Shown here in pieces: positions 1 to 25,265 of a stretch of 25,265 nt of DNA. The position numbers were made by a program, and so were the translations under genes. The notes beneath the pieces were generated by a model. The model searched no databases. It had not been told where the DNA came from and saw nothing but the letters and a program-made list of their open reading frames with translations. Origin of the DNA: a virus; IMG/VR virus record IMGVR_UViG_3300035183_001399, positions 1 to 25,265 of that record; one strand, given 5' to 3'. How positions within the stretch are numbered: position 1 is the first letter of the stretch; each line of letters starts with the position of its first letter.

Positions 1-3000
1 GCGAGCGCGCGGCTTCTTTCGCGCGCGCTTCGGCTTCCGCCTTCGCCGCCTCACTGTAACCCTCCAGCGTCGGCATCCCGGAAGCCAACGTCTCGTTTAC
101 AATCTGGACTGGAACGGGGCCGTCGTACCCGGACTCACGTAGGGTTGCCACAAGCGCCCCCGCGTATTGCGCCCAATCTTCGGACGCATACCGAACCTGA
201 CCGTTGTCGTCCCGGACAAGCAGGATTGCTGGCACGACGCCACTCGACAGGTCGACGCGCTTCGGCACATTGGACACGTCGAGGTGAAGCGCCCCGAGAA
301 ATATGCGCGCGTCAGGCGCGTTGATTGGCGTGTAATCAACCGTCAGTTGCGTGTTAGGAAGGTTTATAGTCGGATTCCCGCCTCGTGGCACGCGCCGTAT
401 AACGTTTTTGGCCCGGTCGTAAACGATTTCGGCATTGTTACGCACGAGGTATGCCGCGATTCTGGGCCCTATATCGTCGACCTTGATTTCTTCACCGAGA
501 TAAAGCTTGGCGAGCGCCTCATCGGCCAAGCGTGTTTCTGCGGCGTCCCACGGCGCAGCGCTGAAGTTGACGCGCTCGGCGTTCTTGGGCAGCGGGCCTA
601 TTACAACGTCGCCGTTCGCGTCCGTGTAAGCGCCCCAGTTGTTGTTCCTTCGCAGCAGCGCAAACGCGCGCGCCAACCCAACTTCGCTGACCTTGGCTGG
701 ACGGCCTTGCTCGATTTCCCTCTGCCAAAAACTAACTGCGTCCGAGTCTTTTTCGTCCAACGGCGTCGAGAGCGCGCTGTCGACGTGCGCTGACGGCGCA
801 GCCTTGAGCCGTAACGTGTTTGTTGGCCGGTCGTATTGGACATTCGGCGACGTTAGCACGAGCGAGAGCACAGACGGGTCGCCTACAGGCGCTGGGACCG
901 TGTACCCCATTCGCAACATGTCGAGGATTGCAGATGCCTTGCTTGCCGCGCGTTCGATTTCTTGCGCCTCGGCATCCGGAGCAGGCAGGGGGCCCAGCGG
1001 GAGCGCGTTTTTGAACATTTCTAGCAAGCCAGCCCTGATAGTCACCGTGGGGTTCGACGCCTTCAATCGCGCTAGGCGCCCAATAAAACTGTTAGATTCG
1101 TTCGGGGCGGCGGTGACATCGTATTCGACCGGGTTGCCGTCCGCGTCGAAACTCGTCGCCACAAGTTTGCCGTCTTTGTTCAGGGCGATGTTGTAAATTT
1201 CGGCGATGCCGTTGTTGCCTTCCGCGCGCGTCACGACAACGCTCGTTCCGGGCCGCATTACGTTAACAAGCGATTGCTGCGTCTGTTGCAGCGCAGACCG
1301 CAGGTCGTTGGCTGCGCTCGATGGAACACGCGGGGCCAACTGTTCCAAGCGCAACATCCGGTTAACGAGCGCGGTTGGGTCGGGTGTAATCCCCTCGTGC
1401 ACGAGCGTAGCGAGATTCGGGAATTGCCAGACGCCGTCGCGCAGTTCCGCTCCCGAGTTCACGAGCCAACTCCGAAGACCGCGCACCGCATTAACCTCTT
1501 CCGGAAGCAGTTGACCGCCCATCTGGAGGAACTCGCGGATACGCTCCTCGCCGGTCAACGTCATGCCTTTGCTAAGCTGGGATTCATCGCCCAGAAGTTG
1601 AGCCATCCGGGCTTCGGGCTTGATATTATTCCAAGTCGAAACGGCACGCCGTATCCCGGCGCCGAGCATCGGGAAAAGACTGAATGTAGCCGTCTCGGAC
1701 GCAACCTGTATCCAGTCGCGTTTATCGTTCGGGTCTCGTATGCCAAACAGGCTCTGAATCTGGTCGGAGGCAATTTCCTCCGCCTCTTCGATTAACGGCC
1801 CGTGGAACTGCGCGCGCTGACGCAACGCCCGAAGCGCGTCGTCCAAGGTGCTTTCCGGGTTCTTCAGAAGGTAACGGTTCACGAGCATTGCTTTGAACCC
1901 GTCCTGCAAATCTTGCGGCAGCGCCTTCGCGCCAGTTTTCACGAGCGAAGCGAGCCCGGCCTCAATTGGTTCACCGAGAACTTCGCTGAATGTCTCGGCA
2001 AAACCCTTGCCGCCAGCTTTCAAGGCGGCTTGGAACCACGGCTCAGCAGGAACGTTTGACAACGCGGCTTGAAGCCGTCCGTCAATTTCCTCGATGTCCG
2101 GGAAGGGCGTAGTCCTCTGTAGAAACTCCGAGCCGCCATGACCGAACCAGCGGAACGGCAACGCGGTTAATGTTCCCGTGACGGCGCCGCCCGTCCATTC
2201 GGCTCCGCGTATTGCTGCGGCTGCGGCGCGTTCGCCGAGCGTTGCCGCTGCGCCGCGTGCCGCAACGCGCTGCAACAGTTGCTCGACGCCCTCTCTCGTC
2301 AGTGCTGACAAACCACGCTCTACAGCCGCGCGACCGACGCGGGCGCCCGCTGAATAGATACCGCCGGTTGCCAAGAACTCCAACGCGAACGGCACCATAG
2401 TGTGGATTATGCTGCCAACCGTGTATCCAGCCTTTTCCCAACCCGTTGCGCCCGCAGGCAACCCCATTGCGTCCAGCTTCGCCTTGTAATCGTAGAGCTT
2501 CTGCAGGTCGGCTTGGTCAGGCTCAAGCCCAGCCTCCAATGCCGCGTTCACGCGCTGCGCCGCAAGCGCAATATCTGCGGTTTCGTAAAATTTGACGCCC
2601 TGCCCTACAAACGGAAGCCAGCTAGTCCAGTCGTCTTCGGTCAACCCTTTGGTGAGTGCGCCAAAAAAGCCGGGACGAACTGTGGTGCTCAATTGCCCTT
2701 CCGGAAGCCAAGGCGCGGTTAACTGTGCGCCGCCACCGGCAGCCGTGCCGCCACCAGCATCCGCGCCGCCAACGGAAGCCGAGCCACTCGTTGCTGGCGC
2801 AGCCAAAGACGGGGACAGGCCACCCAACCGCGACGAGCTTGAGCCGGTAATGAGACTAAAAGCGTCAGGGGCGTATCCGAGCCACGAAGCCAAACTCGAA
2901 GTCCCGCTTTCAGCCGAAGGGGCGGCCTGCCTCCAGTCGTTCGACTGGAAGCTGTAGCTCGGCCGAAAATCGGAGCCGAAAAGGTATTGGAACGCATTCG

Positions 3001-3301
3001 AGGGTATGTCTTCGTTGAGCGAAAAAAGGGGTTGGCCCGCAGTCTGCGTGTTCAACCCGCCGGACGACGGTGGCGCAAAACTAAGACCGCCGAGCGAGTT
3101 GGAATAGTTTGTGGATTGCGCGAAGGCGAGCGGGGAAACCGCGCCGTAGCTGTCCCAAAACGTTTCAGGCTGCGACGCGCTCATCGGGCTGGGTTGCGAG
3201 GCTGAATATATCCAGTCGCCAAGTGATGCGCCGCCGCTTGAACCGCCCCCGCCTAGGCTCGTCCAGCTTTGGTTTGTGTTGGTCTCCCACCAGTTCGCCA
3301 T
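1..3301 (-). CDS. Giant virion/ejection-type protein, 3' end beyond window (at least 1100 aa)
   Basis: A single minus-strand frame opens with ATG at 3301-3299 and stays free of stop codons to base 1, giving 1100 complete codons; the C-terminus lies outside the window. Residues 1 to about 230 are low-complexity and rich in Gly, Ser, Trp and Ala (it begins MANWWETNTNQSW), which looks disordered. A mostly helical region follows, with a hydrophobic segment near residues 290-320 (TMVPFALEFLATGG) that could insert in a membrane or pack in a bundle. The rest is mixed alpha/beta with an Ala/Glu/Lys-rich helix at the edge. Size, position after other low-complexity virion-type genes and the hydrophobic segment resemble the very large internal or 'polyvalent' proteins that some podovirus-like phages eject with their DNA; this is inference, and no enzymatic motif was recognised. 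No Shine-Dalgarno sequence precedes the ATG; instead there are two tandem A-rich 10-mers. The reading frame is certain, the function is not. Confidence 0.85.
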   Translation of the reverse strand, partial: MANWWETNTNQSWTSLGGGGSSGGASLGDWIYSASQPSPMSASQPETFWDSYGAVSPLAFAQSTNYSNSLGGLSFAPPSSGGLNTQTAGQPLFSLNEDIPSNAFQYLFGSDFRPSYSFQSNDWRQAAPSAESGTSSLASWLGYAPDAFSLITGSSSSRLGGLSPSLAAPATSGSASVGGADAGGGTAAGGGAQLTAPWLPEGQLSTTVRPGFFGALTKGLTEDDWTSWLPFVGQGVKFYETADIALAAQRVNAALEAGLEPDQADLQKLYDYKAKLDAMGLPAGATGWEKAGYTVGSIIHTMVPFALEFLATGGIYSAGARVGRAAVERGLSALTREGVEQLLQRVAARGAAATLGERAAAAAIRGAEWTGGAVTGTLTALPFRWFGHGGSEFLQRTTPFPDIEEIDGRLQAALSNVPAEPWFQAALKAGGKGFAETFSEVLGEPIEAGLASLVKTGAKALPQDLQDGFKAMLVNRYLLKNPESTLDDALRALRQRAQFHGPLIEEAEEIASDQIQSLFGIRDPNDKRDWIQVASETATFSLFPMLGAGIRRAVSTWNNIKPEARMAQLLGDESQLSKGMTLTGEERIREFLQMGGQLLPEEVNAVRGLRSWLVNSGAELRDGVWQFPNLATLVHEGITPDPTALVNRMLRLEQLAPRVPSSAANDLRSALQQTQQSLVNVMRPGTSVVVTRAEGNNGIAEIYNIALNKDGKLVATSFDADGNPVEYDVTAAPNESNSFIGRLARLKASNPTVTIRAGLLEMFKNALPLGPLPAPDAEAQEIERAASKASAILDMLRMGYTVPAPVGDPSVLSLVLTSPNVQYDRPTNTLRLKAAPSAHVDSALSTPLDEKDSDAVSFWQREIEQGRPAKVSEVGLARAFALLRRNNNWGAYTDANGDVVIGPLPKNAERVNFSAAPWDAAETRLADEALAKLYLGEEIKVDDIGPRIAAYLVRNNAEIVYDRAKNVIRRVPRGGNPTINLPNTQLTVDYTPINAPDARIFLGALHLDVSNVPKRVDLSSGVVPAILLVRDDNGQVRYASEDWAQYAGALVATLRESGYDGPVPVQIVNETLASGMPTLEGYSEAAKAEAEARAKEAARS

Positions 3302-3321
3302 TTTTTGCTAGTTTTTGCTAG
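3302..3321 (-). repeat. Tandem 10-bp repeat abutting the giant gene's start codon
   Basis: Two perfect copies of CTAGCAAAAA (minus strand) sit head to tail immediately before the ATG at 3301. They fill the place where a Shine-Dalgarno sequence would be expected, and no GGAG-like motif is present. An A-rich unstructured leader can help ribosome entry; whether it does so here is inference. Confidence 0.7.
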
Positions 3322-7779: not shown

Positions 7780-8688
7780 ATGATACGCAAAATTAGCACT
7801 GAGATGTTGGATTCGTTTCGTGGGCAGCCCTTGGAGTTTTACGTGTTTGTCTGCATGATTCTTTTGGCCGACTCTGACGGCATGGTTGAGATGCCGGTTG
7901 AGAAGTTGGCCGACAGGATTTCGTTGCCGGTTGACCGTGTGCGTCGGGCGTTGGAATCGTTGTCGCGCGAGCATATCGGGTCACGGTGCCGTGCCGAGAA
8001 CGGCGCACGGATACTGCGCGCTAACGGCGGCTGGCGCATTGTCAATTTCGTGGCGTACCAATCCCTTTCAAACGAGGACGCGGCGCGTTTGGCAGGTGCC
8101 GCCGCTACCGTTGCCGGCTCGACACTCGGACAACGTTTGTCGGCATTGAGAGCCGGTCTTTGCGAGATGTACAAGCGCCATCCGGACGCGCTTTGGCAAT
8201 CGCTCGAGGAGCATCGCCTTATCGAAGTCGCTCGTCGCGAGCACGCGCTTGCCGAGTTCGATGAGATAAAGGCGTTCCGCGCGAGGGCGAGTCGGTTTCC
8301 GTCGAACATCAAATCGCTGCTGGAACGTTGGAACGAAACGCTTGACCGCGCGCGTGTTGGGTCGCACACGGACGAGGACGCGCCCTTGACCGTTAGGCTG
8401 AAGGCGGTCGAGCACCTGTTAAGTGGGCATCCGGCCAACCCGGAATCGTTGTGTGCCATCGACAAGCCTACGCCCGAACAGAAACGCGAGTACAAGGAAC
8501 TTTTGGCTGAACGCGAAGAAATCATTCGCCGTATAGCCGGTTTGAAGAAAAAGAAGAAAGGAGAACTCCATGTATCCGAACGCAAACGCATTGCCTGTAA
8601 AGGACGAGACATCAGTATCCGAGACTGCGCTCGCCTATTGTTGCCTGACCGACAGAAACGCGCTGCAAGGCACAATCGACGCTCTTAG
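7780..8688 (+). CDS. Putative phage replication initiator, winged-helix N-terminus (302 aa)
   Basis: Residues about 18-95 read like the winged helix-turn-helix seen in phage replication initiation and DnaD/O-type proteins: a hydrophobic helix (LEFYVFVCMILLADSDG), an MPVEKLADRISLP turn, a recognition-type helix (VDRVRRALESLSRE), then an apparent wing ending GGWRIVNFVAYQSL. Residues 110-270 are charged and helical, and the tail is very basic (five Lys in a row near residue 255, then many Arg and Lys). The likely job is to bind the origin and load the helicase encoded next door. Start is ATG at 7780 with GGAG 7 bases upstream. The last 119 bases overlap the helicase gene in another frame, a long overlap that suggests translational coupling. 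Alternatively the true C-terminus is shorter in relatives. Family assignment rests on pattern and context, not on a search. Confidence 0.7.
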   Translation: MIRKISTEMLDSFRGQPLEFYVFVCMILLADSDGMVEMPVEKLADRISLPVDRVRRALESLSREHIGSRCRAENGARILRANGGWRIVNFVAYQSLSNEDAARLAGAAATVAGSTLGQRLSALRAGLCEMYKRHPDALWQSLEEHRLIEVARREHALAEFDEIKAFRARASRFPSNIKSLLERWNETLDRARVGSHTDEDAPLTVRLKAVEHLLSGHPANPESLCAIDKPTPEQKREYKELLAEREEIIRRIAGLKKKKKGELHVSERKRIACKGRDISIRDCARLLLPDRQKRAARHNRRS

Positions 8689-9880
8689 CGACGGGTTCGA
8701 CGAAGTTTACAACCCGATTGCGCGTTACACGTTAATAGCGTCGCGCGACCTGTTGCTCGCGGGGAAACCCGCCGACTACGTGACCGTTGCCGAGCGTTTG
8801 AAGGCCGAGCACGGCGTCGACGTGGCTGCCTTTAGCGCGTTCGTTGCCGAAGCCGAAAAACTCGTGCCGTCGGCGCAGAACTGGCCGACGTACGTCGAGG
8901 AAGTAACGGTTGCCGCTCGGAAACGGCTTTTGCACCGGGTTGTCACCGAAGCGAAAAACGCACTCGAAACCAACGGCGGCTCCTACGAGAACGCCATCGA
9001 ATCGTTACGGCGCATTGTTCTGGAAACATGCTCGCCGAAAAACAGGGCGAAAAAATTGTCCGACGTGCTCGTCGAGGGTGCGCGCGATTTGTACGACGGG
9101 TCGGCAAAGCACATAACAGGTATCCCAAGCGGTTTAAGCGATTTGGATAGGCTAACGCGGGGGTTCAAGGGCGGTGCCGTTACGGTTATTGCGGCGCGCC
9201 CGTCCATCGGCAAAAGCGCGCTTGCCTCACAAATTCTGTTGCAGGCGGCACTTCAGTCAGTGCCGGTCGCGTATTTCACGCTGGAAATGACGGCTACCGA
9301 AGTCGCAGCCCGGCTCTTGCGGACGCAGCTTTTGACGTTGCCACCCAAAAAGGAAGAGATTGACGGCGCGTATAGCAGGCTGAACCCGCTACAGTTTTGG
9401 ATAGACGACACCGCCGGACTTACGATTACCCAGTTGTGTTCGCGCATGATAGACCTTCAAGCGACACGCGGCGTGCGCCTGTTCGCCGTCGATTACATGC
9501 AACTGGTGCATTGCGACCGCGCGCGCCGGAACGAGAACCGCGAACGCGAGGTTGCCGAAATATCGCGCGCGATTAAAAAAACCGCGTTACAACTGAACAC
9601 GCCAGTCCTGCTCGTCTCGCAACTGAACCGCGAGCCGGAACGGAAAGAACGGCGTCCGACACTGTCCGACCTACGCGAGTCCGGCGCAATCGAACAGGAC
9701 GCAGACCAAGTGATTTTGTTGTACGCGCCGAAGGTCGAGGACGAGTTCAGCGAAGACGGTATCGTACCTGTTCGGGCAGATTTGGCGAAGAACCGCAACG
9801 GGCCGACGGGCATTGTTCGTTTGACGTTTTGCAAACCCAAACTGCGTTTCTATTGCGAATCTCAATCCGAAAGCGCGTAG
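8570..9880 (+). CDS. dnaB-like: DnaB-like replicative helicase
   Basis: This 436-aa protein unwinds DNA at the phage fork as a hexameric ATPase. Residues about 15-115 match the DnaB N-terminal domain (SETALAYCCLTDRNALQGTI, later KPADYVTVAERLKAEHGV). The RecA-like domain holds Walker A ARPSIGKS (209-216), where the usual G-M before GK is S-I; Glu240 in FTLEM; Walker B LFAVDYMQLV with Asp308; the DnaB signature around 349-385 (SQLNREPE, then RRPTLSDLRESGAIEQDAD); and the arginine-finger region KNRNGPTG (408-414). Length is close to bacterial DnaB. The start is ATG at 8570 with AGGAG about 8 bases upstream, inside the end of the initiator gene; a TGA lies nine codons upstream in frame. Its stop overlaps the convergent tail gene by 19 bases. 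Confidence 0.95.
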   Translation: MYPNANALPVKDETSVSETALAYCCLTDRNALQGTIDALSDGFDEVYNPIARYTLIASRDLLLAGKPADYVTVAERLKAEHGVDVAAFSAFVAEAEKLVPSAQNWPTYVEEVTVAARKRLLHRVVTEAKNALETNGGSYENAIESLRRIVLETCSPKNRAKKLSDVLVEGARDLYDGSAKHITGIPSGLSDLDRLTRGFKGGAVTVIAARPSIGKSALASQILLQAALQSVPVAYFTLEMTATEVAARLLRTQLLTLPPKKEEIDGAYSRLNPLQFWIDDTAGLTITQLCSRMIDLQATRGVRLFAVDYMQLVHCDRARRNENREREVAEISRAIKKTALQLNTPVLLVSQLNREPERKERRPTLSDLRESGAIEQDADQVILLYAPKVEDEFSEDGIVPVRADLAKNRNGPTGIVRLTFCKPKLRFYCESQSESA

Positions 9881-11664
9881 GCTTCAATGGCGTGAATGTT
9901 GAATCCGCCGCAAGAACCGTTAAACACAAGCTCGTAATAAACGTACCGGCCTTTCAACGAAAAACGCCAATGCAATTTCGCAACCGGCGATTGGCGCACT
10001 CCGAGCTTCGGCATGTCGGCTGGCGCAATTTTTTCCTGACACGCGATGCGCCGTGGGCTGAACGTGTGCCATACCACACCGCAATTGCTTGTCTTGGGAT
10101 AACCCGCAAGCTCCGAACCGGTCACCTTGGCGTTCGGGTCGTACGGATGCGCCGACACGCCGATGCGCAACGTGACCTCGCCCGGGTCGGTCGGGTCTTC
10201 CGGCTCAACGTAAACCGAGAACCCCACAATGCGCGTTTCGCCTGTGCGGTCAGCCAACGGTAGTTCACCGCGCAAGATGGATTCGTACTGGTCATGCCGC
10301 TTGTTGCCGTTCTCGTCGTAATGCAGGCGAACGTACGAATCGACCAGCCGTTTCAGCCCGAAATCTTTCGTAGACGCCCCGATGAACAACGGACGCGCCG
10401 GGCCGATTGCGTTAGACGGTGACGGCGTCCAATTCACATAGGCAGACATCCCGTAATCCCTGTAATCGGCAGTCTTCGCCGTCAGGTTGAGCACCAGCGT
10501 GTGGTTGTTGAGGCCGCTCGTTGGCCAAATCGCGACGCCTTCCTGAGTCTGCACGGCAGGCCTGTCGTCGGATAGGTATTGTGTTGTGGGCCACGAAATG
10601 TGAATTTCGTTCGACATTTGCAGGCTCGGGTCGCCAACGTTCAAACAAAACGCCGCCACGGGCGACAACACCGCCCCTTGGTCTATGCGGTGTATCCGAA
10701 AAATAATCTCGCTCGCGCCGTGCAACCATTCCGGAGATTCGGGCACGGTATGATTCGGTGAATACGTGTAAATGTCGTCGTCGCCCAAATAATAAGCGGT
10801 GAAGCCGTCTGAAACCAAAGTGTTTGGATACCGCAGACACCGAAGCTTGCTCGTCGGCTCAGTGTAAACCTTCTGCGCCTCGAACAAGACGGCGCCGATT
10901 GAAGAATCGAACCTGAGGGCGCATCGGTAGATGGATTTGTCCGTGAACACGTGCAGGTACCCGCCCAACTCGGCCACGTTCAGAATTTCTTCGCCGTAAT
11001 CCAAGTCCTGAAAATCCGCTAGGCTCGAACCGCCGCGCGACCATATTGTTGGGTTGTTCAGGTCAGACCAGCGCACCCTGTACGAATAAACCTTCCCATC
11101 CTCGGTCGTGTTAAACGCGAACATGAAACCGCGCCAAGCATAGAAGAACGCCGCGCGCGTAAACGGCGCACCCGACAACGCCGTCAGGGAATCCGTCGTA
11201 ATGTTGTAGACGAGCAACGAATCGTAATTGTTGGTTAACAGGACTCTGTCGTGCAACGTTGCGGCGCGGAAGCGTGGTGTGGTTTTGCGTTCGGGGTTTG
11301 CGCTCGAACCGAAGTTGCTGCCGAGAATTCTCCATTGTCCGTCTGATTCGTTGAGAAGGGCAAGGCGCGAGCGTGTGCCCAGCAACAGTTTGGTTTGTCC
11401 GTTGTCGCGAACAGCGCTGTAAAGGAACGTAATCGGCTCCGGGTTATCCTTTTGCTTGGCGTAGAAATCGGATTCGCCGCGTATGCCGTTCACAATCTCG
11501 TAAGGTCGCAGATAACCCCTGCAACGCATCAGGTTGCCGCTGGTGCTGACAGAAAGGTTCTGTTTCCAAACGAAAACGTTCGGTTTTAGCGCGGTCGGCG
11601 CAGAACGCGCGTCCAGCGGAGCTGTTAACGGCGCCACAAAAATCGGCACACCACCTGTTGCCAT
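9862..11664 (-). CDS. Tail nozzle/hub-like virion protein (600 aa)
   Basis: Repeated beta-strand blocks such as TPRFRAATLHDRVLLTNNYD, GFMFAFNTTED and YSYRVRWSDLNNPTIW (about residues 130-210) resemble the beta-propeller nozzle or stabilisation proteins of podoviruses (T7 gp12 and P22 gp10 functional class), in which 'RWSDLNNPTIW'-type lines are common. Residues about 400-600 form a further beta-rich domain. The protein would extend the connector and carry adhesins; no enzymatic motif is seen. ATG at 11664 lacks a clear Shine-Dalgarno sequence and lies 27 bases after the 61-aa gene. Its end overlaps the oppositely oriented helicase gene. The propeller assignment is by pattern and should be tested by structure prediction. 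Confidence 0.7.
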   Translation of the reverse strand: MATGGVPIFVAPLTAPLDARSAPTALKPNVFVWKQNLSVSTSGNLMRCRGYLRPYEIVNGIRGESDFYAKQKDNPEPITFLYSAVRDNGQTKLLLGTRSRLALLNESDGQWRILGSNFGSSANPERKTTPRFRAATLHDRVLLTNNYDSLLVYNITTDSLTALSGAPFTRAAFFYAWRGFMFAFNTTEDGKVYSYRVRWSDLNNPTIWSRGGSSLADFQDLDYGEEILNVAELGGYLHVFTDKSIYRCALRFDSSIGAVLFEAQKVYTEPTSKLRCLRYPNTLVSDGFTAYYLGDDDIYTYSPNHTVPESPEWLHGASEIIFRIHRIDQGAVLSPVAAFCLNVGDPSLQMSNEIHISWPTTQYLSDDRPAVQTQEGVAIWPTSGLNNHTLVLNLTAKTADYRDYGMSAYVNWTPSPSNAIGPARPLFIGASTKDFGLKRLVDSYVRLHYDENGNKRHDQYESILRGELPLADRTGETRIVGFSVYVEPEDPTDPGEVTLRIGVSAHPYDPNAKVTGSELAGYPKTSNCGVVWHTFSPRRIACQEKIAPADMPKLGVRQSPVAKLHWRFSLKGRYVYYELVFNGSCGGFNIHAIEAYALSD

Positions 11665-11691: not shown

Positions 11692-11877
11692 TTAGCTCAG
11701 CCTACGCAAACGGCGCAGCGTAAGCGCGAGTCTGGCGCGCCTACCGGTCTTACCGGCTTTCTTGGCGGCCTCTTTGAGCAGCGACATTGGTATCGGCTTG
11801 CCCGTAGGCGCGCCAAGCGCCTTGTGAAGTGCGCCCTTGTTCTTAACCGCGTTTTGTATCCATTTTCCTTTGGTCAT
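11692..11877 (-). CDS. 61-aa basic phage protein
   Basis: A short, strongly basic protein with a conserved-looking start (KWIQNAVKNKGALHKALG), then GKPIPMSLLKEAAKKAG and an Arg/Leu-rich helix at the end. This pattern (W-I-x-x-A-x-K-x-x-G-A-L-H, G-K-x-I-P, R-A-R-L-A-x-T-L) resembles small hypothetical proteins I have seen in tail regions of other phages; no function is known to me. The start ATG at 11877 has GGAGG 5 bases upstream, among the best sites in the window, so strong translation is expected. It sits between the adhesin-like and nozzle-like genes. DNA or RNA binding is possible from charge alone. Confidence 0.8.
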   Translation of the reverse strand: MTKGKWIQNAVKNKGALHKALGAPTGKPIPMSLLKEAAKKAGKTGRRARLALTLRRLRRLS

Positions 11878-11894: not shown

Positions 11895-14800
11895 TTAGGA
11901 CGTTGTGATGTTGATGCTGTAGAACGTAATCTTCGGCGTGCCGTACGCTGTCGGTTCATATTGACCGATGAACTTGGCGTACAACCTCCAAGGGCCGCGC
12001 GCCTGCACACCGTAGAACGCTCCGAAAAGTGTAACCTCTTTTTTCTGGATTGAAACGTTGCTGTCGTGCGGGTCGTGTCGAACCGCATCGAACACGAGGC
12101 CAGCGCACCAATCGCCGGTCTTGCCCGGGGTCGGCTTGTAGCTGCCAGTGAACGGGAAGGACGCTCCGCAGCCCGGGCGCGGCGCGTAATCAGCCGCGCT
12201 ATCCGAAAACGTCAGGAACTTGCCAGAAATGTACGAATTGTCCAAACCAACACCCGACATTAACGCGCACGCGTTCTTGCCGTCGGGAGACACAAGTGTA
12301 ACGTACAGGAACGGCAAGTAAGCCATACGTTCTAGCTTCAACGTAAGCGTCAGGCTGGAAACCCTTCCTGCGTTTGGCCAAGGTATGATGAGCGGGTAAT
12401 TGTCCGGGCGCAAGCTGAACGCGCCGTCGTACACATCAGCGTCGTTCAGGTTTCCGGTAAATTCGCCAACTTTAACCTCTCCGTAACATCGCAATTCCGA
12501 TTCGGCCAATGCTCTGGCCAGCGTTTTCGCGTCGTTCACTGCGTCTTGAAATGAAACAAGGCTGTAACCTGTGGCAGATTTCGTAACCGGGTCGCCGACC
12601 ATGCTGCTGTCACAAAATGCCGTATACTCCTGTGTTGATGTGTAGATGCGGTGGCAACGCGGCGCAAGCTTGGTCGCAAGCGAGCCTTGAGCGGCTTGTG
12701 TCGCCTTGTTAACAGCGTCGGCTTGTGACACCGGGCTGGTTGCTTGGGCCGTCTCGCACAACCGCGCTGTAGGCGAGTTGTAGACCTGATAGTTGACTCG
12801 GAATCTTACGCGGCTGAAATCTATCCCGCCAAAACTGCAACCCGGCGTTAGCCAGATAAGCGCACTGTCCTCGACACCTTCTGCCTTGCGACATTCTGTC
12901 GGATGCAATTTTAGTGTTGCAACCGATTTGATTGTGAGCGTCCTGCATATTTTGTATGCGGCGTCGAATGTCGTCTTGGGCGCAAGCGTCGAACCATCGC
13001 TGGGGACGTAACTGCCAACAACAGCCGCGCGTTTACCGCCTGTTCCGGTCGTTTGCGATACCAACAGAAATGTTGATTCGTTGAGTCCGGTGATTTTATC
13101 CCACGTCGAGCTCGGGTCGTTGGCGTCGGGCAACGGTTTTTGCGAGATGGATATGTCCAAGTCGCGCAGCACAAGCCTGTCAAGCGGCTCGTGCGGCCCG
13201 GGCACAATTTGCGCCGCGTCGCCGTCGGACACAAGTTCGACAGATTTAACCCAGACCGGCAGTGTCCCCGTGCCACTAGGATGAGGCTGGCTAAGGCTTG
13301 CCTGCCACTGGAGCACAACGCGCAGGTAACGGTCGCCGCCGCTTTGGACAATGTCCGCAGCGATGTTCCCGGCCTCGAAACGCAAATCAATTTGCGCGTC
13401 GTTCGTAAGCGCGTAACCGGTCGAGCCGAGCCCTTCGTCGCATGTTTTACAGGCCGTAGCTGTGCCGTAATACACGGTTTGCGGAGGGCCGGAACCGGCC
13501 TCGATGTCCGGTAACGCTTGCGGGTCCGGAACAGGCGACGGCGGTGGGTCGGCTGGGCAATCCGGGCACAAATCTTTGAGCGTAACGAAGTGATAAAGCG
13601 AATAGCCAACCGGATTAAACGGAACAACTTGAACTGTTCCATCGATGCCGTTACACGGGCCTTTCGTTGCAATGGGTGTTGCGTGGTAAATGCCGGTTGG
13701 CACCGGGAATTCCGTGTTCAATGCGCCGCAACTGTGGACTATGCACGAATCGTTCTCGCAATCGAGGATATACCCGTCCACGCATATGCCGATGCTTTGG
13801 GGTGGGTTACGGAACAAAATCCACGCTTTATGGCCGAGCCCCCAACCGCTTTCGTCCAACTGAATAATCCAAGGCGCATTCGCAATCGGCATTGGTTGAC
13901 CTGTGTTCTCGTCAACCGGTACCCATGTGTCCGGGAACCCAAACCATTCAGATGTTCGCATGAACCGATAAGGCAGGAACGGCGAGCCGTCCGGGCGCAG
14001 CGCCACGACGTAACAGTCGGTTGGTGTGCCGGATTGGCCTGTCGGGAGCATGACAGTCGCAAACTCGTAATCGCAACACGGGTCAGCGCTGAAATAGCTG
14101 TAACCGTAGTAATCGAGCATGCGCCCCGTTGTATTCTTCAACGCTGGAGTTGTTGGGAACGCAACGTCCTCAAACCGGTCGTCGTGAACGTAGTCGTAAT
14201 GGACAACCTGACTGCCCGTAAACGGCCCGTTGATTTCGGTCAGAACCCAGAAAATGTCCCTGTCGGCCCAAGGATATACGTTGTAGAAAAGGATTCCGGG
14301 CGGAGCGCGCCAGATACGCACCTTCCGGATTCGGGCGCGTTTCACATCGTCATCTGGCAACTTGACGGTGACAACAGCCGGTTGCCCGACGTGCGTTATA
14401 ACGACGTATTTGTAGTGGCCGCCGTTTACGTCGCAAACCCTGCATCCGGTGCAGTCCAGACCGGCACGCGGCTCGTCCGAATCGCAGTGCATGACGACGA
14501 GTTCGGTTTCGCCCTCGTCCGTCACAAACGACGCGGCGTAAATGCGGTGTTCTTCCTCTGGCAACGGCGGCGCCGTCGAGCCGTTCGGCAGGGTCGGTAT
14601 TTGGCCGGGGGCAGCCCTCGGCGGCCAAGGCGCCGGTAACGGCATGACGCTGTTCGCCGCGCCGCAACCGCGCTGGACGAACCGCACATTTTCCATCGTC
14701 AAATCCGAACGGAAAATCTGAGACGGTGTCCCACCGCCTGTCGAACGGAGGATTGACACCCAATACAACAACGGGCCGAACAGCGTCCCAACCGTTCCGG

Positions 14801-16259
14801 CAACGTAAAATTCAATCTTACCGTTGAAGTCCGCGTCGGGAACGAAATTGAAACTGTACTCGCGCGGTTTCGAGTCCCAACCGAACGCGAACACACGCGC
14901 CGCGCGTTCGACACCAAGCTCGTCTATTACGCGCACGCCCAACCCCTGATTGACGCCCAATCGCTGGTTTCCGGCAGCGTAAAACTTGACCGTGTACGTG
15001 TCGCCAGCTTTGTATGCTATCGCATTCAACGAACGCAAGACGGCGCCGTCCTGCGTTACTGGGGAGAAATGGACATATACACCTTCCCCGTATGGCCCCT
15101 GTGCAGAGTGCGGCAACGGGTCTACCAACCCGCGACCGTACAGGTCGAATATACCGCTGCGGACTTCCCATTCCCGGAACGTGACGTAGTTCAGGGCTGG
15201 GACAGGCCTGTAACCTTCCTCCGAATCCATGCAGTTGGACGCGCATATCAAATCGCGGTAATACGTTATGTCCGCGTCTGGGTCTCCGTCGCGTCCGGGA
15301 TACGCATTCGTAAATGCGCCGTTGGAGGCCAAACTGCGCGAAAACTCGAATCCGGCATTGGCACGCAACCCCATTACGATAAAGTGCACGCCCTGCGACC
15401 GTATCGCGCCCAACTGCGATTGTAAGGCGCTCTTCTCCGATGCGTTGAGGAGCGTGTCTTCGCCGTCCGTGTAAACGATAACCACAACGGTCGGTCTGCC
15501 TGTCGGTTGCCAGTTCGGCGGCATGTTCTGCGACGGCCAGTTCGACCAAGAAAGTTTCTTGGCGGCTTCTTGGGCTATCGTAATGAGCGAATTGAAGCTC
15601 GTGCGTTTCCGTTCGCGCGGTTGCGCGGCGATGGTATCAACAGCAGCCGCAACCGCTTCGGGCGTTTCCAAACCTGTAGCCGCTTGCGTTGCCGCCTCGT
15701 CGAACAACCAAATGTCGGCGAAGATTTTGTGGTGTGGCAGCAGGAAATCGCGCGCCTGTTCTTTTATTGAAGCCAGCGCGCGGTCGAACCGCGTGCGATA
15801 CGCTCCGCCAAACGGACTGTCCAACATCGATTTGGACGCATCGACCGCAAAGAAAATCCAGACCGGCATTCCGTTGCAACAATCGCCGCCTGTGACCTGT
15901 ACGCTCGCTGTCAACTCGGCGGACGGCGCACCTGTCGGGCGCGCCTTAATCGTCACATTGCCGCGCCCAACGGCGGTGGCGTTCCCGTTCGCCGGAACAA
16001 TCTGGACAATACTGTTATCGCTGGACTCGAATGTCGCGGACACGGGCATTTCAATGCCCGCCTGAACGTAAAAGACAGAAAAGACCTGTGTGTTTCCGGG
16101 GCAGAGCACAACCGTTTCGGGACGGATAACGTAACGCGCGCCGCATTGCGATGGATGGGACCGAGCATATTCCGGGTTCGAGCAGGGGTCAACCGGCGGC
16201 GCCGGGCACGGAGCGACTACAGGCTGCGGAAGGATTGTTGTCGCGCTTTGTGTTGGCAT
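11895..16259 (-). CDS. 1454-aa multidomain adhesin-like virion protein with vWA, Ig-like and P-domain-like modules
   Basis: Probably a host-recognition or tail-fibre-class protein, inferred from size, position after the connector gene and adhesive domains. In order: a Pro/Cys-rich start (1-42); a bacterial Big2-like Ig domain (about 44-124, with SSDNSIVQIVPANGNATAVG); a von Willebrand A domain (about 132-320) with a complete MIDAS, D140-A-S142-K-S144, T220 and D265 in YTDGED; a jelly-roll carbohydrate-binding-like domain (about 360-560, AYKAGDTYTVKFYAAGN); a long Cys-rich middle with C-x-x-C pairs (CTGCRVC, ACKTC, CPDC); two degenerate DUF5977-like repeats (about 1150-1258, each with an ADAV/DAVN core); and a C-terminus (about 1265-1454) resembling a P/Homo-B domain (LYVTLVSPDGKN, FTGSYKP, GPWRLYAKF). 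ATG at 16259; weak Shine-Dalgarno. It follows the connector-like gene after 12 bases. Confidence 0.85.
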   Translation of the reverse strand: MPTQSATTILPQPVVAPCPAPPVDPCSNPEYARSHPSQCGARYVIRPETVVLCPGNTQVFSVFYVQAGIEMPVSATFESSDNSIVQIVPANGNATAVGRGNVTIKARPTGAPSAELTASVQVTGGDCCNGMPVWIFFAVDASKSMLDSPFGGAYRTRFDRALASIKEQARDFLLPHHKIFADIWLFDEAATQAATGLETPEAVAAAVDTIAAQPRERKRTSFNSLITIAQEAAKKLSWSNWPSQNMPPNWQPTGRPTVVVIVYTDGEDTLLNASEKSALQSQLGAIRSQGVHFIVMGLRANAGFEFSRSLASNGAFTNAYPGRDGDPDADITYYRDLICASNCMDSEEGYRPVPALNYVTFREWEVRSGIFDLYGRGLVDPLPHSAQGPYGEGVYVHFSPVTQDGAVLRSLNAIAYKAGDTYTVKFYAAGNQRLGVNQGLGVRVIDELGVERAARVFAFGWDSKPREYSFNFVPDADFNGKIEFYVAGTVGTLFGPLLYWVSILRSTGGGTPSQIFRSDLTMENVRFVQRGCGAANSVMPLPAPWPPRAAPGQIPTLPNGSTAPPLPEEEHRIYAASFVTDEGETELVVMHCDSDEPRAGLDCTGCRVCDVNGGHYKYVVITHVGQPAVVTVKLPDDDVKRARIRKVRIWRAPPGILFYNVYPWADRDIFWVLTEINGPFTGSQVVHYDYVHDDRFEDVAFPTTPALKNTTGRMLDYYGYSYFSADPCCDYEFATVMLPTGQSGTPTDCYVVALRPDGSPFLPYRFMRTSEWFGFPDTWVPVDENTGQPMPIANAPWIIQLDESGWGLGHKAWILFRNPPQSIGICVDGYILDCENDSCIVHSCGALNTEFPVPTGIYHATPIATKGPCNGIDGTVQVVPFNPVGYSLYHFVTLKDLCPDCPADPPPSPVPDPQALPDIEAGSGPPQTVYYGTATACKTCDEGLGSTGYALTNDAQIDLRFEAGNIAADIVQSGGDRYLRVVLQWQASLSQPHPSGTGTLPVWVKSVELVSDGDAAQIVPGPHEPLDRLVLRDLDISISQKPLPDANDPSSTWDKITGLNESTFLLVSQTTGTGGKRAAVVGSYVPSDGSTLAPKTTFDAAYKICRTLTIKSVATLKLHPTECRKAEGVEDSALIWLTPGCSFGGIDFSRVRFRVNYQVYNSPTARLCETAQATSPVSQADAVNKATQAAQGSLATKLAPRCHRIYTSTQEYTAFCDSSMVGDPVTKSATGYSLVSFQDAVNDAKTLARALAESELRCYGEVKVGEFTGNLNDADVYDGAFSLRPDNYPLIIPWPNAGRVSSLTLTLKLERMAYLPFLYVTLVSPDGKNACALMSGVGLDNSYISGKFLTFSDSAADYAPRPGCGASFPFTGSYKPTPGKTGDWCAGLVFDAVRHDPHDSNVSIQKKEVTLFGAFYGVQARGPWRLYAKFIGQYEPTAYGTPKITFYSINITTS

Positions 16260-16271
16260 AAATCCATCCCG

Positions 16272-18401
16272 TTAACGGCATTGAACGAAGCCGGCACCGT
16301 CCGGGCAACTACACGATGTACTCCAACTTCCAGCACCGCATTTAGGCGGAGGGGGGCAAGAGTTGTACTTCCGCCACACCCGATTCTGGCTCGGCCTAAT
16401 CTCGTATTCCATATCGCAAGTATATATACCCCCATAGCAGTACACAGCACCGTCCTTCGCGGTGTTTAAGCTTTTAACTTCGTTGGAATTCAAAAAGTCG
16501 AGCGCAGCGTTTCTGGCCAGAGCGTCCGCCGCACCTTTGGTTGCGGCGCTGAACTCGCCAGCCGGTACGCGAACCTTGATAGTGATTTTATGCAAAACAT
16601 AGGTGTTGTAGCCAGCAAGGCCCACGCCATTGTAGCGGGTGCAATACAAATATCCACTGTCGACCTTAGCGACGAAGTACGACGATTCCACAATTTCGGA
16701 GTTTTTCTCGACGAGCGAGCCCGAGCCTCCACCGCCACCGGGACCGCCCGGCGGCGCATTGCGCGCGGCGCAGCATTCGTTCGCGCGGCTTTGTGCGGTG
16801 TTTTGCGCTAGCGAATCCGCTGCTGCTTGGGCGGATTCGTGCTGGGCCTTGCCGCTGTTCTCGACAACGTAAGACATCTCTCCCTCGTCAACGTTCCCGA
16901 CGCACGTTGACGAGTCTGAGCACGTGACACTGAAGGATTTCGCCCGGTTCTTGTAAGCGCAACGCAGCGTCGACCAAGCAACCTGTTCGGCGTGCGCGTA
17001 TGCAGCGGCGTTGGCGTCTTCCTTGGACACGGTCGATTTGAATGTGCCCGCGTCGATAACAATTGTGACCGGCGCGCCGACCGGGTCTGGTGCACCATCG
17101 GATTTGACGCAATTTGCGGTGTAAGACACCTCGTCGTTCGCGTATTCGGTCGGGGCGTCTTGGCATTGCAATTGGGCTTGGGCGCGTTGCAGCGCAAGGC
17201 TGTCCGCGCGCGCGTTGGCGTCGTCGGTCGAAATGGTGCTCTGCACCTCACCCGCCTCAACCACGCCAACGGCAGGTGCGCCCGTCTTGCCATCGGGGCA
17301 CGTCGCCGTGGCTGTTCGCCGGTCGTTGTAGAAGACGTTAACGCCGCCGGCGCCGCCGCCGGCTGCACCACCTGCCCCGCCCGTCCCGCCGGTGCCGCCT
17401 CCACCAACACCGCCGCCGCTGCCACTGCCAACGGTCGCCGAACCAGCATACGAACCTTCGACAATAGGCAATGCGCCAGCAACGCTCGCCCCGGAAGCGG
17501 ACGCGAGCGTGCCTTCGCCATATATGCCGCGCAACCTCGTCCGTTGCGAACACTCGTAAACCAACGTAGGTAAAGCGCCCGGAATGCCTGCGGATGGTAG
17601 GCCGTAGTATTGGGTCTTGAAGGCGTTGTATCGCCCGCTATCCGGCTCGTGGTTCATTGCGACCATCATGCCGACATAAGCGCGCAGCGCGTTCAAAACC
17701 ATCGGGTGTTCGTGAAGGGTATCTGAGTCGTTCCAAAACCGCTTTATGCCGTCGAACTCGATAAAGACGGCCTCGGTCGTCTGCACCCAAGGCACGATGT
17801 AAATCAGACCGCCGTGCAACGCCCAATACCCGAACGGTGAGCGCCCAACCGCGTCCGCGTCAGCCGTCGGATACCTGAACCCCATCGGTAACGGGGCCTT
17901 GGACTGTTGCTCGGCGTCGTTCGGCTCGGGATAAATATACTTGTGCGCCAACCCCAACCCGCTCGAACACAACGCGCCCAACGCAGCCCCAACACCCGTA
18001 AACGCGCACGTCTTGTAACGGTCGAAATACCGCACCAACCGGTGATAATTGACCTGCTCGTAATAAACAGGATTACACCAATCCAACTCAGACAACGTAT
18101 CCGGGTTGGCGGATTTGTTCTTCTTCTCGACTGTATAAACGGCCGTTATAATGCCGTCCGGGGCTGGGACAACGGTTGCGCCGCAGCGGAAGTAGCGTGT
18201 GCAGTTGGTGTAGACTATACGGTTGTTAACGCGGAGGCAGGGCACGTGGAGTTGAAGCTCGGAAAGCGCTTCCTCCATGTAACGCGAGTATGGGCCGCGC
18301 ACGACGCGGTTGCCGAGCCCTATCCTGTCCAGAAGGTTCTCAGCCGCGCCCTCCGGGTAGAGCGTTGCAAGAATCGCGTCGCGTGCCTCTGCAAATGTCA
18401 T
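16272..18401 (-). CDS. Connector/adaptor-like virion protein with C-terminal DUF5977-like repeats (709 aa)
   Basis: Residues 1 to about 295 form one unit (start MTFAEARDAILATLYPEGAA, then EEALSELQLHVPC and a beta segment CGATVVPAPDGIITAVYT) that resembles head-tail adaptor proteins placed after the capsid gene in podovirus-like phages. A Gly-rich linker (318-353) leads to three tandem repeats (about 357-413, 421-481, 485-544), each with a Cys-containing beta strand, an AG-x-F/V-x-S-T segment, an S-x-x-D-A-N motif, an Ala-rich helix and a closing Cys. This is the DUF5977 pattern. After a second Gly-rich linker (551-562) a more diverged copy follows (about 565-645), then a Cys/Pro-rich end. An adaptor carrying such an extension could display the repeats at the vertex. 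ATG at 18401 follows the 175-aa gene after 20 bases. Adaptor assignment is moderate; the repeats are clear. Confidence 0.75.
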   Translation of the reverse strand: MTFAEARDAILATLYPEGAAENLLDRIGLGNRVVRGPYSRYMEEALSELQLHVPCLRVNNRIVYTNCTRYFRCGATVVPAPDGIITAVYTVEKKNKSANPDTLSELDWCNPVYYEQVNYHRLVRYFDRYKTCAFTGVGAALGALCSSGLGLAHKYIYPEPNDAEQQSKAPLPMGFRYPTADADAVGRSPFGYWALHGGLIYIVPWVQTTEAVFIEFDGIKRFWNDSDTLHEHPMVLNALRAYVGMMVAMNHEPDSGRYNAFKTQYYGLPSAGIPGALPTLVYECSQRTRLRGIYGEGTLASASGASVAGALPIVEGSYAGSATVGSGSGGGVGGGGTGGTGGAGGAAGGGAGGVNVFYNDRRTATATCPDGKTGAPAVGVVEAGEVQSTISTDDANARADSLALQRAQAQLQCQDAPTEYANDEVSYTANCVKSDGAPDPVGAPVTIVIDAGTFKSTVSKEDANAAAYAHAEQVAWSTLRCAYKNRAKSFSVTCSDSSTCVGNVDEGEMSYVVENSGKAQHESAQAAADSLAQNTAQSRANECCAARNAPPGGPGGGGGSGSLVEKNSEIVESSYFVAKVDSGYLYCTRYNGVGLAGYNTYVLHKITIKVRVPAGEFSAATKGAADALARNAALDFLNSNEVKSLNTAKDGAVYCYGGIYTCDMEYEIRPSQNRVWRKYNSCPPPPKCGAGSWSTSCSCPDGAGFVQCR

Positions 18402-22868: not shown

Positions 22869-25265
22869 TTAAAGCGCGCTGTTGGGAGCGCCCGGCTGCG
22901 GCAGCAGTTGCGGGGCGGCTACAACAGGTGGCGTCGGCGGCGCAGGTGGCGGGACTTGCGTCGGGACGGGCCCGGAGCCGGCCATCATCGGGATAGGCGG
23001 CTCGGCTTGCGGCCCTGCCAACCCAACGTCTGCGGTCGATTGAGTTGCGGACTGAAGCGCTGTGACAATTTTTTCGAGCACGCTACGCAAGACTTCAATC
23101 TTCTGGTCTTGCTGGACGTTGGCGGCGTTAATCTGTTGAAGTTCTTGGCCGACCTTCTGCACCACCTGCTGTAGCGCGCCCATAATCTGTTCGGACTGCT
23201 GGGCGCCCTGACCTGCCGGGCCAGTCGAATCCGATAGTTTGATTCTGAAATTGCGGTCTGCGCCGAGCAACCGAGCAGAGTATTCGAGCAGTTGCGCGAG
23301 CGATTGCGGGTCAATCCGCTGCGCCAAGAGCGGGTTCTGGCCAACGGCTTGCAGCGCCATAAGTATCGCCTTGGCCGATTGTTCGTCGCGCCGCGTCAAC
23401 GGGCCGTTTAATGCCGTCGCAATCGCCTCGAATACGCCGAACTTCATCTTGTTGCCCTTAACGCTGATTTTCGAGCCGTCAGGTCTGCGCCCGACAATTT
23501 CCAGACCGAGCGATTCAATGGCCTTTTCCGCATCGGGTATGTCGGCTGAGATTTCAACCGCAAACTCGCCTTGGAAAAAGCAGATTATGGCTTCGTATAA
23601 CTGCCGTTTCCAAGCGTCAATGGCTTCGTCGATAAACGACGCGGTTAACTGTATCCTGTGCCCGACCTGCTCGCGGATGAACTCGATTTCGCCGCGCGAT
23701 TGCTGGTGCGTCGCCTGACTGCCAAGCTCCTGTGCACTGAAGTTGAGAAGCCTTTCCAGCAGCGCCATAAGGGACGAAAACGCGGACATGATTTGAGTCA
23801 CGTCGCTGTACTGGAATTTGACCTCGTGAATCGCGGCGCGGGTATCGTTCCTTTGCGAAATCCTGTCCTTGAAGGAGTCGAACCCGATTAGGTTAACGCA
23901 CTGGTACTGCCAATGCGTGTGGATTTTGAGCTTTTCTATGGCGTCCTTGTCGATGGTGTTCTCGTCGTAGAACACGATGTTCGTCAGGTTACGCTTGATT
24001 GTGAGGAGCATCTGTGTAACCAGATTCGCGAACATGTCTTGGAACGGAACAATTTCCAGAGCAAGCGACGCATCTGACGCGCGGCATGTATCGGCGTCGT
24101 AGGCCGCGTAAACGATTGGGCGGTAGGGGAACGCCTCGACGTGTAGAACGGATTCGTCCGCGCCGATAATGAACCTGAACCAGAGCGGCTTATCGTAATC
24201 GCCCAAACCCCACTCCGACGGCACGAGTTTCTGGAACAGGACGGTGACGCAAACGGCCTTGTCGTTATCGTTTTCGTTGTATACGAGCATTTCCCGTTCG
24301 CGCGCGCGGTCTGGTAAGCCGGTGACGTTGTCAACGGCGGCCCTTGCGGCCACGGGAAACTCAAGTGTGCACGGATAAACCTCTGAAAAATACGCAGCCC
24401 ATTCGTCGTTCGATTTCAGGTTGTGACCGTACGGCACGCGGTCGATGTTCCAGAAATCTTTGTTTCTTGCAACATCGCCCCAACGCCAAACAGACCAGTA
24501 CCCGGCGTATTCGCAGCCGGTATCTGTGTTCAGCGTATAGGCTGGGTGCGCCAAATCATAAATCAACCGCGTCACATGCGGTTGAACGTAGCGGATACCC
24601 TGCTTTTCAACGATGGATTCGTCGCCGCGTTGCGTGTCCTCAGTGTACCAAGCCTCAAGCGGGAACATAATTGACACCGAGTACATCAGGCACTGGAATA
24701 TCATCTGGCGCAGCACAGACGTGTAACCAAACTGGCGCGCTATAACGTCGCAAATCTGTGTGAGCACCTCGCCCCGTACGCGGTTCTCTGGCGTGTAAAC
24801 TGCTGGCTCGAACTCGAACAGGGGCGATTTGTTGCGTTCGTTGAAAATCTTCGCCAACCGAATCTTCAGATAGGCGCGCACAATCGGCACGAGCACTTCA
24901 TGGAACAACTTCGGGTTAAGCTCGTACCGTTTCTTGCCGTCAGGCCCCTCCGTTTCGACGATGAAATCCTGCTTGTTAAGCCCCCAACCCTTTACCTCGC
25001 GCAGAACGTCCTCCTCGGTTTTGCACCGGGACAGTACGTGCCGGATGATGGTTGGGGTTGTTTGGTGAAAGGGCGCGTCAAACGCCAAATCGACCGCAGC
25101 CCAGATTTTGTAGTAACGCAGGCACCGGTCGCGACCGTTCTTAATCCGGTCGCACGTCAGACGCAAAAGTTCGCGCGGTTTCTCGGCAAGCTCTTCAACC
25201 GGCTTGTCGAATATCTTGCGCAGGCCCGCTGCGTCGAGCCCTAAGCTCTTGATTTTGTCCGGTAA
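22869..25265 (-). CDS. Probable portal protein, 5' end beyond window
   Basis: The frame is open from the right edge (first codon TTA at 25265) to TAA at 22871-22869, 798 residues in the window; the first in-frame TTG at 25166 is not the natural start, since 33 further protein-like codons (LPDKIKSLGLDAAGLRKIF and on) precede it. Portals form the dodecameric ring at the DNA-entry vertex. Support: first gene before scaffold and capsid, typical large size, a Tyr/Trp-rich alpha/beta body, a long helical stem-type region in the second half (QELGSQATHQQSRGEIEFI, then SFIDEAIDAWKRQLYEAI), Gln-rich coiled-coil helices (GALQQVVQKVGQELQQINAA), and a Pro-rich tail. The terminase genes would be expected just right of the window. 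No invariant motif exists for portals, so this rests on pattern and gene order. Confidence 0.75.
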   Translation of the reverse strand, partial: LPDKIKSLGLDAAGLRKIFDKPVEELAEKPRELLRLTCDRIKNGRDRCLRYYKIWAAVDLAFDAPFHQTTPTIIRHVLSRCKTEEDVLREVKGWGLNKQDFIVETEGPDGKKRYELNPKLFHEVLVPIVRAYLKIRLAKIFNERNKSPLFEFEPAVYTPENRVRGEVLTQICDVIARQFGYTSVLRQMIFQCLMYSVSIMFPLEAWYTEDTQRGDESIVEKQGIRYVQPHVTRLIYDLAHPAYTLNTDTGCEYAGYWSVWRWGDVARNKDFWNIDRVPYGHNLKSNDEWAAYFSEVYPCTLEFPVAARAAVDNVTGLPDRAREREMLVYNENDNDKAVCVTVLFQKLVPSEWGLGDYDKPLWFRFIIGADESVLHVEAFPYRPIVYAAYDADTCRASDASLALEIVPFQDMFANLVTQMLLTIKRNLTNIVFYDENTIDKDAIEKLKIHTHWQYQCVNLIGFDSFKDRISQRNDTRAAIHEVKFQYSDVTQIMSAFSSLMALLERLLNFSAQELGSQATHQQSRGEIEFIREQVGHRIQLTASFIDEAIDAWKRQLYEAIICFFQGEFAVEISADIPDAEKAIESLGLEIVGRRPDGSKISVKGNKMKFGVFEAIATALNGPLTRRDEQSAKAILMALQAVGQNPLLAQRIDPQSLAQLLEYSARLLGADRNFRIKLSDSTGPAGQGAQQSEQIMGALQQVVQKVGQELQQINAANVQQDQKIEVLRSVLEKIVTALQSATQSTADVGLAGPQAEPPIPMMAGSGPVPTQVPPPAPPTPPVVAAPQLLPQPGAPNSAL

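Follow-up and report, generated by a model that had tools for sequence, protein, structure and literature searches.

Can a tailed phage recognise its host through an integrin-type, metal-dependent domain built into a giant tail protein? The question is raised by IMG/VR virus record IMGVR_UViG_3300035183_001399, a linear record of 25,265 bp that was analysed over its entire length (the window) and that is likely a genome fragment. Its source is an uncultivated short-tailed bacterial virus bearing a P22 gp10-like gene. On the minus strand, an open frame with an ATG start (11895..16259, -) encodes a putative tail adhesin of 1454 aa. A preliminary description of this DNA had placed in it a von Willebrand A (vWA) domain with an intact metal site (MIDAS), flanked by an Ig-like and a jelly-roll-like domain. 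In cellular adhesion, vWA/MIDAS is a classic metal-switched module for gripping proteins.

The region of aa ~130-320 is a divergent vWA domain. Profile matches place it at aa 135-317 (15309..15857, -), and shuffled controls and a low-confidence structural model accord with this assignment. Searched as a whole, the 1454-aa protein matches Pfam VWA PF00092 with E=0.037. The isolated domain reaches E=5.8e-4 and 20.6 bits over profile positions 2-157 of 174, and it matches VWA_2 PF13519 with E=8.1e-3. Both scores fall under the curated cut-offs (23.8 bits for PF00092, from which the domain is 3.2 bits short, and 27 for PF13519), and naive annotation would therefore overlook the domain. Scores in this range also occur in E. 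coli: YehP, which RefSeq lists as 'VWA domain-containing', obtains 20.2 bits against PF00092 and ViaA, an established vWA protein, 12.9 bits, although other vWA models recognise both proteins with strong scores. When the domain was shuffled or reversed, none of the seven resulting copies gave a Pfam match. The profile search against vWA families that the preliminary description had proposed bears out its domain assignment, with sub-threshold matches to two of them. Domain length, element order and the DxSxS...T...D motif are those of the vWA and integrin I-domain family (PF00092). It differs in being very diverged (18-19% to YfbK and ViaA) and in lying inside a predicted phage tail protein.

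The metal-site residues are all found where they had been described. The first motif, DASKS at 140-144 (D140, S142 and S144; 15828..15842, -), aligns with DTSGS of YfbK and ViaA. T220 (15600..15602, -) forms the second motif, and its column is invariant in the alignment with these two proteins, as are the DxSxS columns. The third, D265 of TDGEDT (15465..15467, -), aligns with the TDG of YfbK. All five residues (D140, S142, S144, T220 and D265) occur in order at loop positions, and as judged from the alignment the MIDAS set is apparently complete. The pattern DxSxS...T...TDG appeared with the right order and spacing in 2 of 20,000 shuffles of the 1454-aa protein, which corresponds to a chance of 1e-4. 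A DNA pattern for YTDGEDT retrieved 16 loci from viral contigs, none with a recognisable vWA motif.

Structure prediction is consistent with this picture. AlphaFold2, run on the single sequence of the vWA domain alone, returned a model of low confidence (pLDDT 47, pTM 0.40) in which the elements follow the beta-alpha-beta-alpha order expected for vWA. The nearest PDB chains of this low-confidence model are mostly vWA or I-domains, with Foldseek E ~2e-3 at best and Z ~8. They include TFIIH p34/p44, PTMP1, MDN1-MIDAS, complement C2a and integrin alphaM, followed by Ku, NorD, the anthrax toxin receptor and Rpn10. Such neighbours lend support to a vWA fold and fall short of proof. A prediction lacking this fold had been named beforehand as grounds for abandoning the assignment; the fold is not absent from the model, but the model is too weak to settle the matter. 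A single-sequence AlphaFold2 run on the Ig-like and vWA domains together was unusable (pLDDT 37).

Both flanking domains of the preliminary description are supported as well. An Ig-like (Big_2) domain occupies aa 45-106 (15942..16127, -). It matches PF02368 with E=3.3e-4 (21.0 bits against a cut-off of 22.8) and phrog_215, 'structural protein with Ig domain', with E=2.9e-5. A beta-sandwich or jelly-roll-like domain follows the vWA domain at aa ~337-510 (14730..15251, -). This stretch has a homologue within a Calx-beta surface protein of Nostoc (tblastn E=3e-6, 28-29% identity), and the Nostoc domain itself matches the choice-of-anchor C model TIGR04362 with E=5.8e-13. The relation to choice-of-anchor C passes through this Nostoc intermediate; directly, the window matches TIGR04362 weakly at 14919-15023, with 12.3 bits against a curated cut-off of 120. 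The copy in the window also differs from the surface-protein jelly-rolls of that family in belonging to a phage protein.

The remainder of the chain is less readily classified. One diverged DUF5977-like repeat is detected at aa 1212-1258 (12486..12626, -) with a profile built from the repeats of the neighbouring 709-aa protein, scoring 9.7 bits where the best of 500 shuffles scored 4.1. The neighbour holds three such repeats, and their occurrence in both proteins hints that the two have an attachment or repeat module in common. A C-terminal domain of ~195 aa (aa 1260-1454; 11898..12482, -) gives the impression of being beta-rich. By eye it also resembles a proprotein convertase P-domain (PF01483), but profile searches did not confirm this, with a weak match on the isolated domain (E=0.26) and none in a second test. 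Neither the whole 1454-aa protein nor any part of it had a homologue in the viral contigs, genome contigs and phages searched, and the plasmid search returned nothing except the Nostoc jelly-roll domain. No tail-fibre PHROG rose above noise for this protein (best E=0.45). A defence role was dropped, PADLOC giving no match.

The genomic setting points to the virion. Read from the right end of the record leftward, the minus strand presents a portal-like gene (22869-25166, -, open-ended), a scaffold-like gene, a capsid-sized gene, a 175-aa gene, the 709-aa gene, the 1454-aa gene, a 61-aa ORF and a 600-aa gene. Labels for portal, scaffold and capsid derive from gene order, size and composition; database searches gave no match for these genes and no portal or capsid homologue. 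The 709-aa protein (16272..18401, -), encoded 12 bp upstream of the 1454-aa gene, is a structural protein with three DUF5977-type repeats at aa 362-544 (PF19404, E=1.2e-16) and a candidate adaptor by its position. Profile comparison did not show it to be a gp4-like adaptor, hhalign against the adaptors of relatives being negative. On the other side, the 600-aa protein (9862..11664, -) is a packaged-DNA stabilization or tail hub protein of the P22 gp10 type. It matches phrog_3287, 'virion structural protein', with E=4e-19, and tblastn pairs it with phage records annotated 'phage stabilization protein'; relatives occur in more than 500 viral stretches. Between it and the vWA gene lies the 61-aa ORF (11692-11877, -), whose small, basic product (MTKGKWIQNAVKNKGALHKALGAPTGKPIP...) is preceded by a GGAGG. 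The 1454-aa gene is flanked by structural genes, and its GC3 equals that of its neighbours, which gives no obvious sign of recent import.

The same position can be followed in relatives. An alignment of gp10-like proteins gave 80 viral loci, which together with four phage genomes make 84 records. Their usual order runs from a capsid gene (~315 aa) through genes of ~105, ~207 and 128 aa to a variable gene, mostly of 190-330 aa, and then the gp10-like gene. The ~207-aa product belongs to phrog_2941, a virion structural protein. Proteins of the variable slot consist mostly of Ala/Ser-rich repeats, and most lack a function label. In Methylophilales phage Venkman, the slot protein gp50 matches phrog_1800 (E=1.2e-26), which clearly marks it as a tail collar fibre, and tail-fibre and adhesion genes annotated by the depositors lie farther upstream of the slot. 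Venkman gp50 and the 1454-aa gene share this slot upstream of the gp10-like stabilization gene, whereas gp50 has 265 aa, no vWA domain and no sequence similarity to the 1454-aa protein. No vWA match occurs in the 84 phage records with a gp10-like gene, most of which are fragments. The 1454-aa gene thus sits in the tail cluster, at the slot that relatives fill with a variable or fibre gene. Its description as a virion gene is supported by this synteny, with the gp10-like gene next to it and a slot that varies among relatives and is once a collar fibre; on that basis the protein very probably forms part of the particle. A separate observation concerns the slot family itself. In loci L022-L101, the gene immediately preceding the gp10-like gene (for example, L062:7106-8005) encodes an Ala/Ser-rich repeat family of variable length, possibly tail fibres or decoration proteins. 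Its members share a W-x(6-9)-W ladder at the C-terminus and carry the motif LEQLD..G.LD at the N-terminus.

A tail location for a vWA domain appears unusual, since both the viral vWA proteins described in the openly licensed papers searched and PHROG labels point elsewhere. Haloviruses encode CobT-like vWA proteins resembling cobaltochelatase (PMC8651126). Jumbo phages and ATV encode vWA proteins that partner MoxR chaperones, and these pairs have been proposed as helpers of virion assembly, not as adhesins (PMC7824862, PMC7911831). In N4, gp25 counts among the core genes, with 'vWFA domain' as its sole description (PMC4193335). All of these proteins share the vWA domain with the window, and several share the MIDAS. 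Unlike the role proposed here, none of them comes with a report of a tail adhesin. In the openly licensed papers searched, phage vWA proteins are found mainly in non-tail settings. The vWA proteins of E. coli match PHROGs whose labels read unknown function or DNA/RNA metabolism, with no tail label among them.

How such a domain would serve the phage can be outlined as a model. We consider the chances about even that the 1454-aa protein acts as a tail adhesin of modular build, with a vWA domain that lends it Mg2+/Mn2+-dependent ligand binding. The protein would attach to the tail close to the gp10-like hub; its C-terminal half, together with the DUF5977-like repeat that it has in common with the 709-aa neighbour, may provide the anchor. 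The exposed head would then be made up of the modules towards the N-terminus (Ig-like, vWA and jelly-roll). A divalent metal may be held by D140, S142, S144, T220 and D265. As happens in integrin I-domains, a ligand on the host surface would complete the coordination of this metal with an acidic group, and the jelly-roll may contact glycans. We infer the anchored end, the metal binding and the binding of a host receptor alike. Weighing against the model are the sub-threshold vWA score, the low confidence of both structure predictions, the 84 records with no vWA match (mostly fragments) and the missing function labels of most slot proteins. The further proposition, that a tailed phage recognises its host through an integrin-type, metal-dependent vWA/MIDAS domain in a giant tail protein, is put forward tentatively, at somewhat below an even chance. 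No report of vWA/MIDAS receptor binding by phage virions was found in the openly licensed literature searched.

The same neighbourhood can be read in favour of a role in building the particle. Here the vWA domain would be an assembly or stabilising module whose metal site grips an acidic residue of the gp10-like or 709-aa protein, leaving host binding to other domains such as the jelly-roll. The vWA gene adjoins the tail hub gene, the DUF5977-like repeat links it to the 709-aa protein, and MIDAS sites also dock intracellular proteins, the MDN1-MIDAS/NLE1 complex being among the nearest structures of the low-confidence model. However, relatives of the same tail class build their tails with no detectable vWA domain, and the Ig-like and jelly-roll domains beside it are of types typically seen in surface proteins. 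Such a clamp between tail proteins is the main rival, and we regard it as unlikely, at perhaps one chance in four. Less probable still is a purely architectural role, with the vWA domain serving a long fibre as no more than a folded spacer or stability unit and the MIDAS residues inherited but not used in binding. Ig-like and other modules of unclear binding role are common in phage fibres, which fits this idea. Against it, a domain so diverged that it drops below the Pfam cut-off has kept all five metal-site residues, which suggests selection on the site.

Two further readings concern what the domain is and where it acts, and both are given little weight. A chaperone-type pairing of a MoxR AAA protein with a vWA partner, at work inside the cell instead of the particle, would match one of the main settings of viral vWA domains (PMC7824862, PMC7911831). 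Yet the record, itself a fragment, contains no match to MoxR-type AAA models (PF07728, PF07726), and the vWA domain lies close to the N-terminus in a giant protein of many domains, encoded in the structural operon, so this reading is very improbable. Slimmest of all is the chance that the region is not a vWA domain and that another alpha/beta domain matches the profile by accident. The sub-threshold Pfam score and the low-confidence structure would allow it, but the profile match is near full length and includes all MIDAS residues, shuffled copies match nothing, the motif has its low chance frequency, and the PDB neighbours of the model are mostly vWA.

If the tail adhesin model is correct, a phage adhesion head with vWA/MIDAS would extend the known receptor-binding folds of phages. 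Adsorption would then be tunable by divalent metal, and the ligand would be expected among proteins or acidic polymers. The locus also illustrates that sub-threshold domains in uncultivated phages can hide recognisable biology.

Other parts of the window complete the description of the record. At its left end, positions 2-3307 (-) hold a frame of at least 1102 aa that runs off the end and resembles, in size and composition, a large internal or ejection-type virion protein. On the strand opposite to the structural operon, positions 8570-9880 (+) encode a DnaB-type replicative helicase (TIGR00665, E=6e-77), preceded on the same strand by a 302-aa ORF.
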